Assembly (NCBI GenBank): GCA_025055455.1
Contig: JANWXD010000027.1
Coordinates: 1-53,983, forward strand
Length of the DNA: 53,983 nucleotides
Direction: 5' to 3'
Origin: Bryobacteraceae bacterium
GTDB lineage: Bacteria > Acidobacteriota > Terriglobia > Bryobacterales > Bryobacteraceae
Shown here: positions 43,070 to 53,843 of the stretch, piece after piece
How positions within the stretch are numbered: position 1 is the stretch's first letter
How the letters are laid out: every line of letters starts with the position of its first letter
Position numbers and translations under genes: made by a program
Notes under the pieces: generated by a model
The model's input: only the letters and a program-made list of their open reading frames with translations
Told to the model about the DNA's origin: nothing
The model's database searches: none

Positions 43070-43477
43070 ATGGCCGGCCGAGCCGAGGACTGGTTCCGGC
43101 AAGCCCGCCGGGATCTGGACCACGCGCGGCGGTCGCTCGAGCAAGGGGACTGGGAGTGGTCCTGCTTTGCCGCCCATCAGGCGGCCGAGAAAGCCTTGAA
43201 AGCGGTCTACGCCTCGATGGGAGAAGAGGGATGGGGCCACTCCCTGATGGGGTTGCTGGAGGCGCTGCCAGCTGCGACCAGAGCCGCGGAAGAGTTGCGC
43301 CGCGCGGCGCGCGACCTCGATCGGCACTACGTGCCGAGCCGCTATCCCAATGCCTACCCGCGAGGCGCGCCATATGAGTTCTACACGCGAGACGATGCCG
43401 AAAAAGCCGTCGCTGCGGCGGATCAGATTCTCCGGTTCTGTGCGGATTATCTCGCTGGACCGCCATGCGGCTATTGA
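43070..43477 (+). CDS. HEPN-domain protein (toxin-like)
   Basis: 135 residues of all-helical HEPN fold: WFRQARRDLDHARRSLEQGD, CFAAHQAAEKALKAVYASMG, then Arg81-x4-His86 in RDLDRHYVPSRYPNAYP, which fits the HEPN ribonuclease RX4-6H motif. The gene is immediately followed by an MNT nucleotidyltransferase that overlaps by 38 bases. HEPN/MNT pairs are known toxin-antitoxin modules in which the MNT partner adenylylates the HEPN toxin. AGGG at 43061-43064 serves as ribosome-binding site for ATG 43070. Confidence 0.9.
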   Translation: MAGRAEDWFRQARRDLDHARRSLEQGDWEWSCFAAHQAAEKALKAVYASMGEEGWGHSLMGLLEALPAATRAAEELRRAARDLDRHYVPSRYPNAYPRGAPYEFYTRDDAEKAVAAADQILRFCADYLAGPPCGY

Positions 43478-43787
43478 CGAGGTCAGAAGCGTGGCGGAGC
43501 GCCTGGCGCAGCAACATCCCGAGATCGAGGAAATCATTCTCTTCGGCTCGCTTGCCACGGGGACGGCTGGGCCGGCCAGCGATGCCGATCTGCTGATCGT
43601 ATTGCGAGATTCCGAGCTGGAGTTCCCGGAACGGGTCGCCCGCTATCTTCCGGAAGGCTGCAGTATCTCCGTGGACGTCTTTCCGTACACTCGGGGCGAG
43701 CTGGAGCACATGGCGGCGGAAGGCCGCCGGCTCGTCACAGAAGCGCGGGAACGCGGATTGCGACTGTTCCCCTACCAGGCGACGTGA
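43440..43787 (+). CDS. MNT-type minimal nucleotidyltransferase (antitoxin-like)
   Basis: About 115 residues from GTG 43440 (an ATG at 43395 or GTG at 43491 are alternatives; the 43440 start fits the RIISLDR opening common in this family). The Pol-beta-type signature IILFGSLATGTAGPASDADL contains GS-x10-DxD, where the two Asp bind Mg2+. VDVFPYTRGELEHM supplies the third acidic position. Overlap with the HEPN gene suggests co-translation. A toxin-antitoxin function is established for similar pairs; it is inferred here. Confidence 0.86.
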   Translation: MRIISLDRHAAIDEVRSVAERLAQQHPEIEEIILFGSLATGTAGPASDADLLIVLRDSELEFPERVARYLPEGCSISVDVFPYTRGELEHMAAEGRRLVTEARERGLRLFPYQAT

Positions 43788-48215: not shown

Positions 48216-48629
48216 TCAGGCATCGCCCGGCTCCGGCTGCTGCTGGAGGAAGGCGAGGATGTCGAAGCGCTGGATCGCGCGGTCGGGGAAGAAGCTGTTG
48301 ACCGCGTCCTGCTCGTCGGCGAAGATTTCGAATACCGTGGACAGTTTGGTGAGCACCAGGAGCTCGATGTTGCGCCGGTTCAAGTTCAGCAGCTTCAGGT
48401 CGCCCCCAGCTTTACGCAGCGTGGTGTAGCAGACCACCATGGCGCCGAGTCCGGTGCTGTCGATGTAGTCGACGTCGCGGAGGTTGAGGATCACGTTCTT
48501 GCGGTCCGCGGCGAGCAGGTCATGCAGCACTTGCCGCACGCGGGCGGCGGGCTCGCCTACGGTCAACGGGCCGCTCAGATCCAAGATGACGATGCCCTCC
48601 TTTTCGCGCTGGCGGATCTCCAGGGCCAT
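48216..48629 (-). CDS. STAS-domain anti-sigma-factor antagonist-like protein
   Basis: About 137 residues. MALEIRQREKEGIVILDLSG begins the STAS fold and VDYIDSTGLGAMVV carries the Ser-Thr site phosphorylated in SpoIIAA-like proteins. The tail is Gln/Pro/Glu/Asp-rich. ATG 48629 is preferred because it matches the family start; ATG 48641 is possible. No anti-sigma kinase is adjacent, so its partner must be elsewhere. A partner-switching regulatory role is inferred from the family. Confidence 0.88.
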   Translation of the reverse strand: MALEIRQREKEGIVILDLSGPLTVGEPAARVRQVLHDLLAADRKNVILNLRDVDYIDSTGLGAMVVCYTTLRKAGGDLKLLNLNRRNIELLVLTKLSTVFEIFADEQDAVNSFFPDRAIQRFDILAFLQQQPEPGDA

Positions 48630-48662
48630 GGAAGGCACCATTGTAGCAGCGGCCGGGCAAAG

Positions 48663-50159
48663 TCAGCTTTCGTCTTCGACCTCGATGGCGTTGACGCAGG
48701 CGTAGTTGACGACCGGAACAAAGTTCAGAACGATCTTGCCTTGAGCGTTGGGGGCGACGCCACGAAAGGTTCGCTGGATGGCGCGGTCGGCGCCTCCCGC
48801 CTGTTTGAAGACGTCGAAGTTGCGCAACAGGGCGACGCCGTTGGCGTAAACATCGAAGACGCGGCTGCCAGCGCCCCCGCCTCCTGGCTTGCCAGGGCCG
48901 AACCAGGTTTCCGCAAAGTGCAGCGTCAGGCGGTACCGGCCGGGGGGCACGGGGATCACGTAAGAGAAGTTACCGAAGCGTTCCCCTTGGTAGAGTTCCG
49001 GATCTGCTGTGGCCGCGACGCGCACCGGGCGCACAACGGTCTGACCGCCGGTGAAACAGCAATCCGGCTCCCAGGTGCGGCCGGCCCGGTCGGTGTAGCT
49101 TTGGTCGTGCACCCGAATTCGGAACGGGCGCATGCGGCCGTCCGGCGCAGGCAGGATCTCGATCCCGCTCAAGATCGCTTGGTCTTTGACTCCAACAAAC
49201 TGCAGGTGCAGGCGGCCGTCGGCATCCGGGGCGATATTCTTAAAAACTACAGCGTCGGCGGTATTCGGACCGCCTGCATTGTTGATCACGTCAAAATACT
49301 GTAGAGCTCGGCGGCCGTTGATATCGACGTGAAAGAGCCGGCTGGTTTCGCCGCCGCCCGCGATATTTCCCGGCCCAAAGACCGTTTCGGCAAACAACAG
49401 ACGCAGCTGATACACCCCCGGCGGGAGGGGGATGTCATATCGAAATTCCGCACCCTCGCGACGGCCACGGAACAGATCCGGTTCGGTCGTGCGGTGAATC
49501 GGTTGGCCAGCAGCCGTGAAAGCTTGTCCCCCCGTATAATACCGGTCGCGGAGCCAAAGCTTACCCCTATTGTCGACATAATCCGCGGCCGTGCGCCCCG
49601 CCAAGATTCGGATCTCGGCCCCGGCGTCTGGAGCGACACCGGCGGCGACAACCGGCGGCGCCGGCCGCGGTCCGGGCCGAAGCGCCCTCCACGCGATGAG
49701 CATAATGAGGCCCACCGCCGCGAGCATAGCTGGAGGAATCCACCACCGACGGCGTGGCGCCGGAGACACAGCCTCAGGGGACACGCTGGGAAGGGCAGCT
49801 TCCGACCGCTTCCGGACGAAGACCGGCGCGTACTGACCCGGCGGAATGGTGATTTGAACGGTGTGGGAAGCGCCTTCGGTCTCATAGTATCGCTGAAGCC
49901 GTTTGCGAAGCCGGCTGGCCTCGACCCGCACGATGGCATTGGTTTTCTGATCGAATTCGGCTGGCCGGCCGAGCGCCTCGACGGCGATGTTGTATTCCTT
50001 GAGCTGATCGGCTTCACCGCGAAAGTACTTCTCGCACACGTACGATAGGAACTGGGCCAAGCTTGGCGCCCGAGCGAAGACCGGCGACGAGAGCACCGTG
50101 CGAAGTTCTGCGCGCTCCTCGTCATGTTGATGGCCAGCACATTCCGAAAGCGGTCGCAT
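48663..50159 (-). CDS. transmembrane winged-helix protein with two malectin domains
   Basis: 498 residues. ATG 50159 has GGGGGAA about 4-5 bases upstream. Residues ~14-112 look like an OmpR/ToxR-type winged-helix domain: a helical part, then IVRVEASRLRKRLQRYY and ITIPPGQYAPVF, which resembles the recognition helix and wing. One membrane helix lies at about 139-158 (IPPAMLAAVGLIMLIAW). The outside part has two malectin-like carbohydrate-binding domains, ~182-336 and ~347-495, with the repeated LxFAETxFGPG motif. This is the layout of a one-component sensor reading a sugar outside and binding DNA inside; no sensing is proven. It diverges from the second TonB-dependent receptor. Confidence 0.85.
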   Translation of the reverse strand: MRPLSECAGHQHDEERAELRTVLSSPVFARAPSLAQFLSYVCEKYFRGEADQLKEYNIAVEALGRPAEFDQKTNAIVRVEASRLRKRLQRYYETEGASHTVQITIPPGQYAPVFVRKRSEAALPSVSPEAVSPAPRRRWWIPPAMLAAVGLIMLIAWRALRPGPRPAPPVVAAGVAPDAGAEIRILAGRTAADYVDNRGKLWLRDRYYTGGQAFTAAGQPIHRTTEPDLFRGRREGAEFRYDIPLPPGVYQLRLLFAETVFGPGNIAGGGETSRLFHVDINGRRALQYFDVINNAGGPNTADAVVFKNIAPDADGRLHLQFVGVKDQAILSGIEILPAPDGRMRPFRIRVHDQSYTDRAGRTWEPDCCFTGGQTVVRPVRVAATADPELYQGERFGNFSYVIPVPPGRYRLTLHFAETWFGPGKPGGGGAGSRVFDVYANGVALLRNFDVFKQAGGADRAIQRTFRGVAPNAQGKIVLNFVPVVNYACVNAIEVEDES

Positions 50160-50309
50160 GGTTCCCCCGTGTGGTCTAAGCATAGCACGGTAGCCTCGCC
50201 CCATGCCGTCGTGTGTAACGTCGGCTTGTAACACGCGACCAAGTCTTTGAAAACACGAGATCAAATGCCGGGTAACGCTCCCGGTCACCCGTGGTTAACC
50301 CCTGTAGCC

Positions 50310-50358
50310 TTGCCGGGGTAGGGCATTCCAATTAAAGTGAGAGCACCAGCCATGCTGG
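50310..50358 (+). promoter_or_regulatory. promoter with palindromic operator candidate for the second TonB-dependent receptor
   Basis: TTGCCG at 50310-50315 and TAAAGT at 50333-50338 are 17 bases apart. The predicted start near 50345 abuts an inverted repeat CCAGC-CAT-GCTGG at 50346-50358. Its place suits an operator for the divergent winged-helix protein. The rest of the 234-base gap 50160-50393 holds nothing else I can support. Confidence 0.35.
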
Positions 50359-50393
50359 CTCCAAAGCCGGTGGCTTGAAAGGCAGGTCGAACC

Positions 50394-53300
50394 ATGCAAG
50401 GGCGTCTTGTTGGGCTAGTGATACTGGGGGTTTGGTTGTTGGATCCGGCGTATGCGCAATCGATCTTCGGCAGCCTCAGCGGGATTGTCAGCGACGCTTC
50501 CGGTGCGGTGGTGCCGAACGCAAGAGTGACGCTGATCAACGAAGCTTCCGGAGACACGCGCAGGACGACCACGAACACGGAGGGCTATTTTTCCATCGTC
50601 TCCATCCCGACTGGCAGCTACACCATTCTGATCGAAGCCCCGGGCTTCCAAAACTGGGAACGCAAGGCTATCGCGTTCACTGGGGCGGAGCGCCGGACGC
50701 TGAACGACATCGTGCTGCAAGTGGCGACGGCGGCGGAGCAAGTTCAAGTGACGGCGACCGTAGAAGGCATTGCCCCGGTGGAATCCGGCGAGAAGGCCGC
50801 AGTGCTCACGACGCGCCAGCTCCAGGAGTTCAGCGTGGTGGGGCGCAGCGCGGCGGAGTTCATCAAGATCCTCCCGGGATTCGCCATTGCCAATACGGGT
50901 GTGGAGAACCGGCAAAATTTCACCGGCGAGGTCATTGGCATCAATGGCAACGGCGACGCGGGCAGCCAAAGCGCCCTGAACAACGCCTACCAAGTCAACG
51001 GGTTGCCCCCGAGCTCGCTCGACATTACGGCCGACGGGGCTCACGTTTCCGACCCTGGGTGCAACTGCGCGACGCCGGTGAACCCCAATACGGACATGAT
51101 CCAGGAATTCAAGGTGCTGACCTCTAATTACAGCGCGGAAAACCCCAAGGGGCCGGCGGTCATCAACACGATCGCAAAAGCGGGCGGGCGCGAATATCGC
51201 GGCCAAACCTACCTTTATGCGCGCCATTATGCGCTGAACGCCAACGACTGGTTGAACAACCGGTTCGGCACGAAGAGGCCGGAAAACAAATTCATGTTTC
51301 CGGGCGCCAACATCGGCGGTCCGGTGCGGTTTCCGGGGAGCAACTTCAACAAAAACCGGGACAAGATGTTTTTCTTCACCGGTTTCGAATACTTCTACCA
51401 AGTCCTGGACACCGGGGTCTTGACGGCGACGGTGCCGACCGAGGGCATGCGCAACGGCAACTTCAGTGCGGCGGAGCTGGCTAAGCTTGGGCAGCGCACG
51501 GCCTCCGGCGCGCCGCCCTCGCCACTGAGCCCCGAGTCGTTGGCCCAATTCCCGGGCGGCATCATTCCGGCCTCGATGCAGGACCCGAGCGGGCGGAATC
51601 TGATCCGGCTGTTTCCGCTCCCGAACGCGGACTCCGACGCCACCGGGGGGTACAACTACGTCAAGCAGGCCATTTTCAATCAGAACGGCTGGCAATGGCT
51701 GAGTCGCGTGGACTACAGCGTGAGCGACTACACCAAGCTGTTCGTTCGCTACAACGCCCAAAGGGAGACGCAGCGTTTCCCAGTCGGTCTGTGGTGGAGG
51801 AATGCCAACCAAGTGCCGTACCCTACGGAAATTCTCGGCAAGAATCGCTCGGACTCGATTTCGGCCAGCCTGACGCACGTCTTCAACCCCACCTTGACCA
51901 ACGAGCTGGTTTTCGGCTACACCTACATCACCTTCCCGAATGTCTTCGACGACCCAAAAAAGGTGGACCGGGCCGCGCTGAACATACCGTTCCGGGGCTT
52001 GTACAAGAACGGCGTGGCCCAGATCCCGTCTTTAGTGAGCTGGGGCGGAGAGTTTGCGCAAATCGTCAATCCTGGGGGCTTTGAAGTCGGCGGCAGCAAA
52101 GGCCTGTTTGCCGACAAGCACCTGCCTTCGATCAGCAATAACCTGTCGAAGGTTTGGAGCACTCACACGATGAAGTTCGGGTTCTTTTACGAATACGTCA
52201 TCAACAACCAGCCCGCCAACGGAGACACGAACGGGCGCCTGGTGCAGGCCAACTGGGGCGGCAACAGTTCCGGCAATCCTTACGCCGACCTGTTGCTCGG
52301 GCGCGTGGCCGAATATGGCGAGCAGAACCTGAATCCGCTGCACAACGAAGCGTACCACACGGTGGAGTTCTTCGCCCAGGACAGTTGGAAAGTGACGCGA
52401 CGCTTGACGGTCGAGCTGGGCCTGCGGGCGTCGCACCTCGGCAACTGGTTCGACCGCGAGGGGATCGGTTTCGCGGTTTGGGATCCGGCCAGTTACGACA
52501 ACAGCCCAGGCGTGCCGCCGGAAAAATACACGGGCTTGCTGTGGCATAAACGTGATCCCCGCATCCCGCTGTCCGGGTTTCCGAACAAGACGCTGAACTG
52601 GGCGCCGCGTTTCGGCATGGCCCTGGATGTGTTCGGCACTGGACGTACGGTAGTGCGCGGCGGTTGGGGAGCCTTTTATTACCATAATGCACAGTTCACC
52701 ACCGGCTTGGACGCGCCGGCCGGCGTGCAGTTCAAGACCATCAGCGCCACGACATTGTCCAGCATCGAAAGAACCGATCCCGGGGTCGGCGCCATCGGCA
52801 CGGGCGCCTTGGATCCGAAAGATGACAAGGTTCCCCTCACCTACAGTTGGAGCTTCACGATCTCCCAGCGCGTGCCGTTTTCGAGCATGGTCGAGCTATC
52901 CTACGTCGGCAATGAGAGCAAGAACGTGTTGAACAACTGCGGGGTGGGGACCAACGTGAACGCGGTGCCATACGGCGCTCTGTTCGGTATCGGCACGGAT
53001 CCAAACGCCCTGCCGAATCTGGACGCGTTTCGGCCGCTCCGCAACTACCAGAATCTATGTGTCGTGCGGCACAACCTCTACCAGAACTATCACGCCTTTC
53101 AAGCGAGCTGGCTCCGGCAGATCGGCAAGTATCTCATCCTGGCCAATTACACGTTCGGCAAGAACTTGGGGATCAACAGCGGCGACGAGTTCCAGCTGCG
53201 GAACAATTACGGGCCCCTGCCGAATGACCGGAGGCACATTTTCAACATCGCCTATTCGATCGAACTGCCGAGCCCGGTGCGATCTCACCGAGCCGGCAAA

Positions 53301-53843
53301 GCGCTGCTGAACGGGTGGCAGATCTCCGGCATTACGCAGGTGCAAAGTGGCGTCAATCTCACCGGCAACACCGGAAACAGTTTCAATATCAACCCGAACA
53401 ACTTCCGGATGGCGAACGGCTACGCGGTAACCAACCGCACGATCAACGGCACCGACGCGGTGGCGCTGCGTCCCATCGTGACGTGCGATCCGAGGAAGGG
53501 TTTAGGAAAGAACCAGTACGTCAACGGGAACTGTTTCAGCTTGCCGACCGTACCTGGCGCGAACGGCCCGATCATTCCGCCCGAGGTCTTCGGTCCGACG
53601 TTCTTCAACAGCGACTTGTCTTTGTTCAAGAACTTCCAGTTCAGCGAGACGCGCAAGTTGCAGTTCCGGTTCTCTGCGTACAACTTCCTCAATCACCCCC
53701 TGTGGACCTTCCGCAACGCGGGAAGCAATCTGAATCTGGTGTTCAATCCGACCACGGGAAAGCTGGACAACCCGAATTTCGGGATCGCGACCGAGAAGCT
53801 GGGGCGCCGCATCATTCAGCTCGCAGTCAAGTATTACTTCTGA
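50394..53843 (+). CDS. Oar-like TonB-dependent outer-membrane receptor with carboxypeptidase-regulatory domain
   Basis: 1149 residues with a signal peptide about 1-22 (LLDPAYAQ). A carboxypeptidase-regulatory-like domain follows about 25-110 (GSLSGIVSDASGAVVPNARV), then a plug about 115-280 (VVGRSAAEFIKILPGFAI, DMIQEFKVLTSNYSAENP) and a long beta-barrel ending in Tyr-Tyr-Phe, the aromatic end used for outer-membrane assembly. It shares domain plan with the receptor at 8793-12140 but is clearly a distinct sequence. The partner genes suggest an imported carbohydrate. An AAAGGCAGG site precedes ATG 50394. Confidence 0.9.
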   Translation: MQGRLVGLVILGVWLLDPAYAQSIFGSLSGIVSDASGAVVPNARVTLINEASGDTRRTTTNTEGYFSIVSIPTGSYTILIEAPGFQNWERKAIAFTGAERRTLNDIVLQVATAAEQVQVTATVEGIAPVESGEKAAVLTTRQLQEFSVVGRSAAEFIKILPGFAIANTGVENRQNFTGEVIGINGNGDAGSQSALNNAYQVNGLPPSSLDITADGAHVSDPGCNCATPVNPNTDMIQEFKVLTSNYSAENPKGPAVINTIAKAGGREYRGQTYLYARHYALNANDWLNNRFGTKRPENKFMFPGANIGGPVRFPGSNFNKNRDKMFFFTGFEYFYQVLDTGVLTATVPTEGMRNGNFSAAELAKLGQRTASGAPPSPLSPESLAQFPGGIIPASMQDPSGRNLIRLFPLPNADSDATGGYNYVKQAIFNQNGWQWLSRVDYSVSDYTKLFVRYNAQRETQRFPVGLWWRNANQVPYPTEILGKNRSDSISASLTHVFNPTLTNELVFGYTYITFPNVFDDPKKVDRAALNIPFRGLYKNGVAQIPSLVSWGGEFAQIVNPGGFEVGGSKGLFADKHLPSISNNLSKVWSTHTMKFGFFYEYVINNQPANGDTNGRLVQANWGGNSSGNPYADLLLGRVAEYGEQNLNPLHNEAYHTVEFFAQDSWKVTRRLTVELGLRASHLGNWFDREGIGFAVWDPASYDNSPGVPPEKYTGLLWHKRDPRIPLSGFPNKTLNWAPRFGMALDVFGTGRTVVRGGWGAFYYHNAQFTTGLDAPAGVQFKTISATTLSSIERTDPGVGAIGTGALDPKDDKVPLTYSWSFTISQRVPFSSMVELSYVGNESKNVLNNCGVGTNVNAVPYGALFGIGTDPNALPNLDAFRPLRNYQNLCVVRHNLYQNYHAFQASWLRQIGKYLILANYTFGKNLGINSGDEFQLRNNYGPLPNDRRHIFNIAYSIELPSPVRSHRAGKALLNGWQISGITQVQSGVNLTGNTGNSFNINPNNFRMANGYAVTNRTINGTDAVALRPIVTCDPRKGLGKNQYVNGNCFSLPTVPGANGPIIPPEVFGPTFFNSDLSLFKNFQFSETRKLQFRFSAYNFLNHPLWTFRNAGSNLNLVFNPTTGKLDNPNFGIATEKLGRRIIQLAVKYYF

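Follow-up and report, generated by a model that had tools for sequence, protein, structure and literature searches.

A transmembrane malectin protein as a candidate one-component regulator of the adjoining TonB-dependent receptor gene in Acidobacteriota

Transmembrane transcription regulators (TTRs) of the ToxR/CadC layout are single proteins that carry a winged helix at the N-terminus and a periplasmic part at the C-terminus, joined by one membrane helix. A 2023 survey, which relied on Pfam models of known DNA-binding domains, reported TTRs to be above average in number in the Acidobacteriae, and the word malectin does not occur in its main text (PMC10269533). In the Bacteroidota, SusR is described as a membrane protein whose sensor lies in the periplasm and whose C-terminal DNA-binding domain lies in the cytoplasm (PMC3878776); SusR-like regulators, which serve starch and dextran utilisation, are encoded beside genes for TonB-dependent importers and glycosidases, and the family has been called unique to the Bacteroidetes (PMC3878776, PMC10936149). 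Hybrid two-component and ECF sigma-anti-sigma systems are also described as performing receptor-linked trans-envelope sugar signalling in polysaccharide loci (PMC3878776). A first-pass annotation of the DNA studied here had named these last two as the sensors of SUS-type loci, which leaves out SusR (PMC3878776).

The window, a whole contig of 53,983 nucleotides from a Bryobacteraceae bacterium, ends 140 bp past the gene of a TonB-dependent receptor (TBDT). That annotation had placed at 48663-50393 a protein that combines an OmpR/ToxR-like winged-helix region and two malectin domains with a single membrane helix, and that points away from an outer-membrane receptor. The span was borne out, with the regulator gene reaching to 50159, the intergenic region to 50393 and the receptor, identified by its Pfam matches, lying beyond, divergent and on the opposite strand (Table 1), and the Pfam malectin match and the AlphaFold models agree with the proposed domain composition. 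The regulator most likely starts at the ATG at 50159, the open frame running on to a GTG at 50288. Pfam recognises Malectin (PF11721; E 8.3e-38, 130.4 bits against a gathering cut-off of 23) over two stretches, no kinase, receiver or sigma domain anywhere, and no model at E <= 10 within residues 1-180, while NCBIfam gives one malectin-containing enzyme model and one weak anti-sigma match. The AlphaFold model of the full-length protein, built on a 71-row alignment (mean pLDDT 90.5, pTM 0.70), runs in order from a helical/winged domain (residues 6-116) through a low-confidence linker to a helix (143-159) and two beta-sandwiches (183-337 and 346-496). A gene for a STAS protein (48216-48641) lies behind the regulator gene; elsewhere in the window, overlapping HEPN and nucleotidyltransferase (MNT) genes at 43070-43787 have the layout of a HEPN/MNT toxin-antitoxin pair.

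Table 1. Positions of the regulator, the candidate operator and promoter elements, and the receptor in the window
Feature	Coordinates	Strand	Remarks
Malectin domain 2 (C-terminal), residues 346-496	48672..49124	-	Aromatics F395, W419, F420 present
Malectin domain 1, residues 183-337	49149..49613	-	Aromatics absent at 2/3 positions compared
Membrane helix, residues 143-159	49683..49733	-	AlphaFold; hydrophobic 19-mer
Winged-helix (NT) domain, predicted, residues 13-116	49812..50123	-	Putative recognition helix 76-93; AlphaFold, VIA-align, hhalign
Transmembrane regulator gene	48663..50159	-	498 aa: winged helix at the N-terminus, single membrane helix, malectin pair (Pfam, AlphaFold)
Divergent intergenic region	50160..50393		Candidate operator and candidate TBDT promoter
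Two further GTTAC	50232-50228, 50219-50215	-	Sequence
Candidate half-sites	50272..50308	-	GCTAC 50308-50304, GTTAA 50299-50295, GTGAC 50288-50284, GTTAC 50276-50272
Candidate operator GCAAGGCTACAGGGGTTAACCA	50292..50313	-	Core 50296-50311; motif statistics
-35-like TTGCCG	50310..50315	+	4/6 to TTGACA, 17-bp spacer; overlaps operator edge
-10-like TAAAGT, candidate TBDT promoter	50333..50338	+	19 bp past operator
TBDT, CarboxypepD_reg and OMP_b-brl_4	50394..53843	+	PF25183 E 6.6e-137 (Pfam); likely target

The same combination of N-terminal and malectin parts was found at 76 of 80 loci from named assemblies (the best 80 of 236 confirmed relatives), so that the architecture is more than a chance assembly; at the four remaining loci the protein is short (174-195 aa) and has the N-terminal domain without any malectin match. 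The 71-row alignment comprises the window and 70 of these loci. Left out were the four short proteins, five frames cut by contig ends (L081, L083, L102, L113, L139) and L147, which was omitted from both alignments as a presumed near-duplicate of L146, although the two are in fact identical at 415 of 482 positions. A hydrophobic 19-mer follows the DNA-binding part and precedes the malectin part in 70 of the 71 members, and the charge bias flanking the membrane helix is weak (more before than after in 36, equal in 22 and fewer in 13; n = 71). Close N-terminal relatives of 163-195 aa that have no malectin occur at L084, L092, L093, L111 and L033, and at the first four of these they precede a conserved gene with MRTLFLNPPSFEGFDGG, radical-SAM-like as judged by eye only.

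Modelled by itself from an 80-row alignment (the window and 79 related loci), the N-terminal (NT) domain has a pLDDT of 85.8, with helices at residues 13-23, 26-29, 32-46, 55-62 and 76-93 and strands at 101-104 and 113-116. A Foldseek search of this model against the PDB gave no match at E <= 0.001 (all at E >= 2.4), and the sole match of a sequence search against PDB chains, an alpha/beta hydrolase (E 0.53), was set aside as chance. The first seven rows of VIA-align are the effector domains of SaeR, ArlR and PhoB, at Z 6.2-6.8 (rows of these three proteins as a whole spanning 6.0-6.8, with the top score covering 87-88 residues at 3.3-3.5 A), and the first 15 comprise 13 response-regulator effector domains and two ScpB (Z 6.1 and 5.7), all below the Z of 8 under which caution is due and a match may reflect a common arrangement. 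The Deinococcus row among the 13 presumably belongs to this response-regulator effector-domain family; ToxR and E. coli CadC do not appear among the 50 rows listed, an absence that excludes nothing. Profile comparison by hhalign aligned the NT domain to Trans_reg_C, represented by 18 domains of the window genome and a second genome (G008), with a probability of 67.6 (E 5e-5) over 23 columns covering the recognition-helix motif only, against a probability of 1.6 for Penicillinase_R, a control winged-helix family. With the 80-row alignment the probability for Trans_reg_C was 46.7, and in Pfam the domain does not reach the gathering cut-off of Trans_reg_C (PF00486). The resemblance to OmpR/PhoB effector domains is the best obtained, yet not decisive, and the NT domain is likely a divergent winged helix of this type: it shares the recognition-helix motif and closing hairpin, but falls below profile detection and is predicted to be helical where the OmpR/PhoB winged helix carries its N-terminal beta sheet. 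The earlier assignment of this region to a DNA-binding fold, made by eye with structure prediction suggested as a check, gains from a model that is OmpR/PhoB effector-like (Z up to 6.8), from the recognition-helix profile match and from a conserved site, described below, that tracks the malectin subfamily; the domain would be expected to bind DNA.

Set beside the described systems, the protein has the predicted layout of the ToxR/CadC TTRs, but its DNA-binding domain matches no Pfam DNA-binding model (E <= 10), and because the TTR survey used such models the NT family was probably missed by it (PMC10269533). Like SusR as described, it is predicted to pair a sensor in the periplasm with a DNA-binding domain in the cytoplasm, within a single membrane protein encoded beside a TonB-dependent importer gene. 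Unlike SusR, whose DNA-binding domain is C-terminal, it has a predicted N-terminal, winged-helix-like one, its sensor is a malectin pair, its phylum is the Acidobacteriota and not the Bacteroidota, and its candidate half-sites lie 9-24 bp apart rather than the 67 or 77 bp reported between SusR sites (PMC3878776, PMC10936149). The receptor-linked trans-envelope sugar signalling that we propose would be shared with the hybrid two-component and ECF systems (PMC3878776), whereas their kinase, receiver and sigma domains are all absent here. By analogy, the malectin regulator may do SusR's job with other domains in another order. The kind of regulator is known and the variant new as far as our literature search shows: judged by titles and the opening of abstracts, no description of the NT-malectin family was found, and no regulator of Acidobacteriota TBDTs turned up.

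The link to a receptor posited from the window is conserved in a tally of relatives, where 46 of the 76 NT-malectin genes are divergent from a TBDT gene at gaps of 18-1090 bp, one lies in tandem behind a TBDT and 29 have no TBDT within 1.5 kb, five of these having less than 1.5 kb of contig upstream. A second set taken from relatives' genomes (n = 26), which shares contigs with the first and is not independent of it, gave 11 divergent, 3 tandem and 12 without a TBDT (4 with less than 1.5 kb of room). When the 71 full-length members, the window's among them, are clustered at 70% identity, 36 of the 58 clusters have a divergent TBDT. By our own estimate, with gene number taken as roughly one per kb, a divergent TBDT would be expected by chance for about 1-2% of genes; four genomes of 3.9-6.7 Mb contain at least 57, at least 54, at least 48 and 38 OMP_b-brl_4 matches. 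Among the closest TBDT homologues, five (G012, G028, G005, G022, G015; 56-63% identical) have no such regulator upstream, so a TBDT can also be controlled otherwise. At eight of the 29 loci (L073, L075, L078, L080, L082, L083, L096, L097) a TBDT gene lies a few kb upstream on the same strand, with two genes intervening at L073, L080 and L097 (at L073, those for a TPR protein and for a 704-aa protein without a Pfam match), and at L116 a TBDT lies 2.8 kb downstream. One contig titled Arcobacter sp. (L087, DYJN01000007.1) carries a pair of malectin regulator and TBDT otherwise seen in Acidobacteriota, and its assembly is probably misnamed.

Between the regulator and TBDT genes of the window lies a candidate operator, AAGGCTAAAGCGGTTAAC. 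The gapped word AAGG-N8-GTTA is present in 25 of 46 divergent intergenic regions (45 loci and the window, one divergent pair 1090 bp apart being left out), while in 10 dinucleotide-shuffled sets no word was present in more than 7. A 22-bp operator model has the consensus gcAAGGCTAAAGCGGTTAACgg, and in leave-one-out scoring the motif exceeds the 99% level of mononucleotide-shuffled regions in 29 of the 46, with a single orientation in 29 of 29. The operator is present in 22 of 36 clusters at 70% protein identity (regions with a full-length regulator), and the nearest site-bearing relative of the window is 54% identical. In the 3.95-Mb genome of the window the core pattern AAGGCTAMNNNNGTTA matches once, at 50296-50311. 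Seventeen regions have no operator above threshold; five of these have apparent gaps of 17-88 bp, and in one of the five (L088) the operator is found inside an over-long TBDT frame. The best local alignments of the intergenic DNA with that of six relatives cover the site alone in three, extend along the repeats in two and fall elsewhere in one, and as none scored above the largest shuffled score, the operator footprint rests on the motif statistics.

The operator also has a fixed place relative to the receptor promoter. A -10-like TANNNT lies exactly 19 bp beyond it on the TBDT strand in 22 of 28 regions, the next best offset accounting for 3. In these 22 promoters, the best -35 hexamer at a spacer of 16-18 bp matches TTGACA at 2-5 of six positions (mean 3.3 versus 2.4 for random bases). 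It mostly opens on the final TT of the operator, and this conserved TT accounts for some of the excess. Half-sites of the form GYTAM recur on the same strand at -9 (21), +22 to +24 (16) and +55 to +57 (14) relative to GTTA in 30 regions; the palindromic GTTAAC places half-sites on the other strand too, so the direct repeats are candidates only.

From the computed architecture, linkage, conserved site, promoter geometry and co-occurrence of site and regulator we infer a one-component transmembrane regulator that binds tandem half-sites, senses a glycan through its malectin domains and controls the receptor gene, a reading to which we assign a probability of roughly 0.72. The cytoplasmic winged helix would bind tandem GYTAM half-sites centred on AAGGCTA-N5-GTTAAC, the bound site overlapping the edge of the -35-like hexamer of a TBDT promoter whose TANNNT is fixed at 19 bp. 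A single membrane helix would join it to two periplasmic malectins, of which the C-terminal one keeps its aromatic face, and a glycan imported into or released in the periplasm would bind malectin, change the dimer state or tilt of the regulator and so alter receptor transcription, perhaps along with transcription of the regulator's own gene. The place of the regulator gene beside the receptor gene and beside a conserved site that goes with it across many genomes suggests that the regulator switches the receptor gene directly. OmpR/PhoB activators typically use tandem sites just upstream of and overlapping the -35, and the candidate operator resembles that of PhoB in being a repeated site at the -35 region; with this analogy and the modest -35, activation of the receptor gene is somewhat favoured. 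The opposite sign of control, in which the tethered winged helix covers the TBDT -35 as a repressor and leaves when the malectins bind ligand, gains weight from the very presence of a modest -35-like hexamer overlapped by the site (TTGCCG with its 17-bp spacer in the window, and above random in the mean), a recognisable promoter beneath the site being suited to steric repression. The matches to TTGACA are modest and owe part of their excess to the operator, however, and tandem sites so placed typify activators, which makes repression a possible but rather unlikely alternative to activation.

With regard to the signal, the malectin domains of the preferred one-component regulator should face the periplasm in the predicted topology, so that a periplasmic ligand would be sensed, most likely a glycan. 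The first-pass idea of a sensor of sugar outside the cell is retained in its membrane sensor layout and amended in its location, the malectins being predicted to be periplasmic. The aromatic face of malectin serves in sugar binding, and comparison with solved animal malectins was used to set three aromatic positions, which we take to be Y89, Y116 and F117 of Xenopus malectin. In malectin 2 aromatics occupy these positions in 69, 65 and 63 of the 71 members, while in malectin 1 the first two are mostly lost. This partial loss, and the occurrence among the PDB matches of malectin-type domains of plant receptor kinases, which are not always sugar-binding, would suit a regulator that responds to a peptide or to the cell wall, or to the receptor through a signal passed by the TBDT in place of a free ligand. 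The retention of the malectin 2 aromatics makes such a non-sugar signal unlikely, as does a GH9 gene behind the TBDT at L130 and the resemblance to glycoside hydrolases of three of ten upstream neighbours scanned at loci without a close TBDT (GH31 at L077, GH1 at L138 and, weakly, GH42-like at L114). The seven that show no such resemblance are TPR proteins (L121, L133), an ankyrin protein (L109), a response regulator (L125), propeller-type proteins (L117, L119) and a large malectin/F5-F8 protein in Edaphobacter aggregans (L151).

The operator follows the malectin regulator rather than the receptor. The 80 loci (1.21 Mb) contain 22 strict operator matches. Each has an NT-malectin gene no more than 463 bp away, and one falls inside a TBDT frame that is over-long. 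Over 61 genomes the core pattern has 11 matches, four upstream of a TBDT (G000, G035 and, twice, G018); for the other seven no TBDT or NT-family member was found within about 1.5 kb on either side, and a reversed control pattern gave 0-6 matches per genome and strand. NT-malectin genes occur in at least 11 of the 61 genomes, and only three of these 11 (G000, G018, G035) have the strict pattern beside the regulator. Among 17 TBDT homologues whose upstream side was read, one at a contig end (G018:C105) scores 21.5 and one with an NT-malectin gene downstream on the same strand (G029:C117) scores 8.8, against a threshold of 8.0. The operator is absent from the upstream side of all 15 homologues (39-63% identical) that have no NT-malectin gene in the stretch read, two of which adjoin an NT-family member without malectin; their scores of at most 2.9 rule out that the operator is a mere part of TBDT promoters. 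Where a TBDT stands beside an NT-family member without malectin, the operator occurs in 1 of 28 regions (loci of related genomes included), and no shared operator of this branch was found in them, the best word being present in 7 of the 28 versus 4 after shuffling. NT-malectin genes without a close divergent TBDT have the operator upstream in 10 of 31 cases and not in 21, the best of the ten (30.6 bits) being that between the regulator and the divergent GH1 gene at L138, and at loci with a TBDT upstream on the same strand it precedes the TBDT above threshold in 1 of 8. A reading in which the membrane protein senses without binding DNA there, and the site is that of some other factor (either a global regulator or an alternative-sigma promoter of TBDT genes), would fit a site within the promoter and its lack in 17 of 46 regions. 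It is improbable given the homologues read that lack the regulator, the near-absence beside non-malectin members, the move to a GH1 gene where the regulator adjoins one and the single core match in a genome whose OMP_b-brl_4 matches number 57 or more.

Beyond the malectin branch, the NT domain was found in 70 of 101 relatives (E <= 0.001) and, with up to 11 candidates scored in each, in at least 65 of 396 genomes from the phylum (E <= 1e-6). From the matches listed, 59 further loci (L207-L265) were hand-picked by genome with their neighbours unseen; they encode 60 NT proteins, for which a TBDT as nearest gene is divergent in 29, tandem downstream in 8, convergent in 2 and tandem upstream in 1, with none within 1 kb in 20. 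The commonest sensor in this phylum survey is an ectodomain of ~270 aa common to 41 of 43 proteins of 380-520 aa, which in five members scanned has no Pfam match over the cut-off. Forms with this ectodomain are TBDT-adjacent in 34 of 41 cases (28 divergent, 6 tandem), as are 5 of 15 forms of at least 520 aa, one of three other short forms and none of the single malectin form in the set of 60. The window genome encodes just one other copy, L070 (409 aa), which carries the ~270-aa ectodomain and likewise diverges from a TBDT. PD40 propeller repeats occur in L208, a long form that adjoins a TBDT. Examples of the ~270-aa ectodomain are L070:8438-9667, L260:3942-5327 and L216:4926-6287. By homology and gene neighbourhood, the malectin regulator is one branch of a large Acidobacteriota family of TBDT-linked membrane regulators. 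Confinement of the NT domain to this phylum was ruled out, as it also occurs in plasmids of alphaproteobacteria: 276 of 72,556 plasmid records encode it at < 60% identity, mostly in Sinorhizobium, Rhizobium, Agrobacterium and Ensifer and in some cases annotated as adenylate cyclase. In the one annotated region read, it forms part of a protein of 1,100 aa labelled adenylate cyclase, with a TonB-dependent receptor gene two genes away. The annotation cyaI3 adenylate cyclase, doubtful for the NT domain, stands on nine of the first ten plasmid matches listed. A Sphingobium plasmid (L294) also carries the domain.

Acidobacteriota are abundant in soils. We think it fairly probable that they possess a class of receptor-dedicated regulators of their own, with a divergent winged helix that no Pfam family covers, a single membrane helix and, in the periplasm, a sensor that can be exchanged (the undescribed ~270-aa domain, the malectin pair or beta-propellers), most single-helix forms standing beside one TBDT and the malectin branch having its own operator in register with the receptor -10. 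If so, this class would be the phylum's counterpart of the SusR, hybrid two-component and ECF systems. The gene pair and its predicted operator would then provide a candidate regulator for many such receptors, and the ectodomain of each regulator a candidate class of signal for its receptor. Receptor regulation in these hard-to-culture bacteria would come within reach of in vitro tests that need just one small domain and a short piece of DNA.
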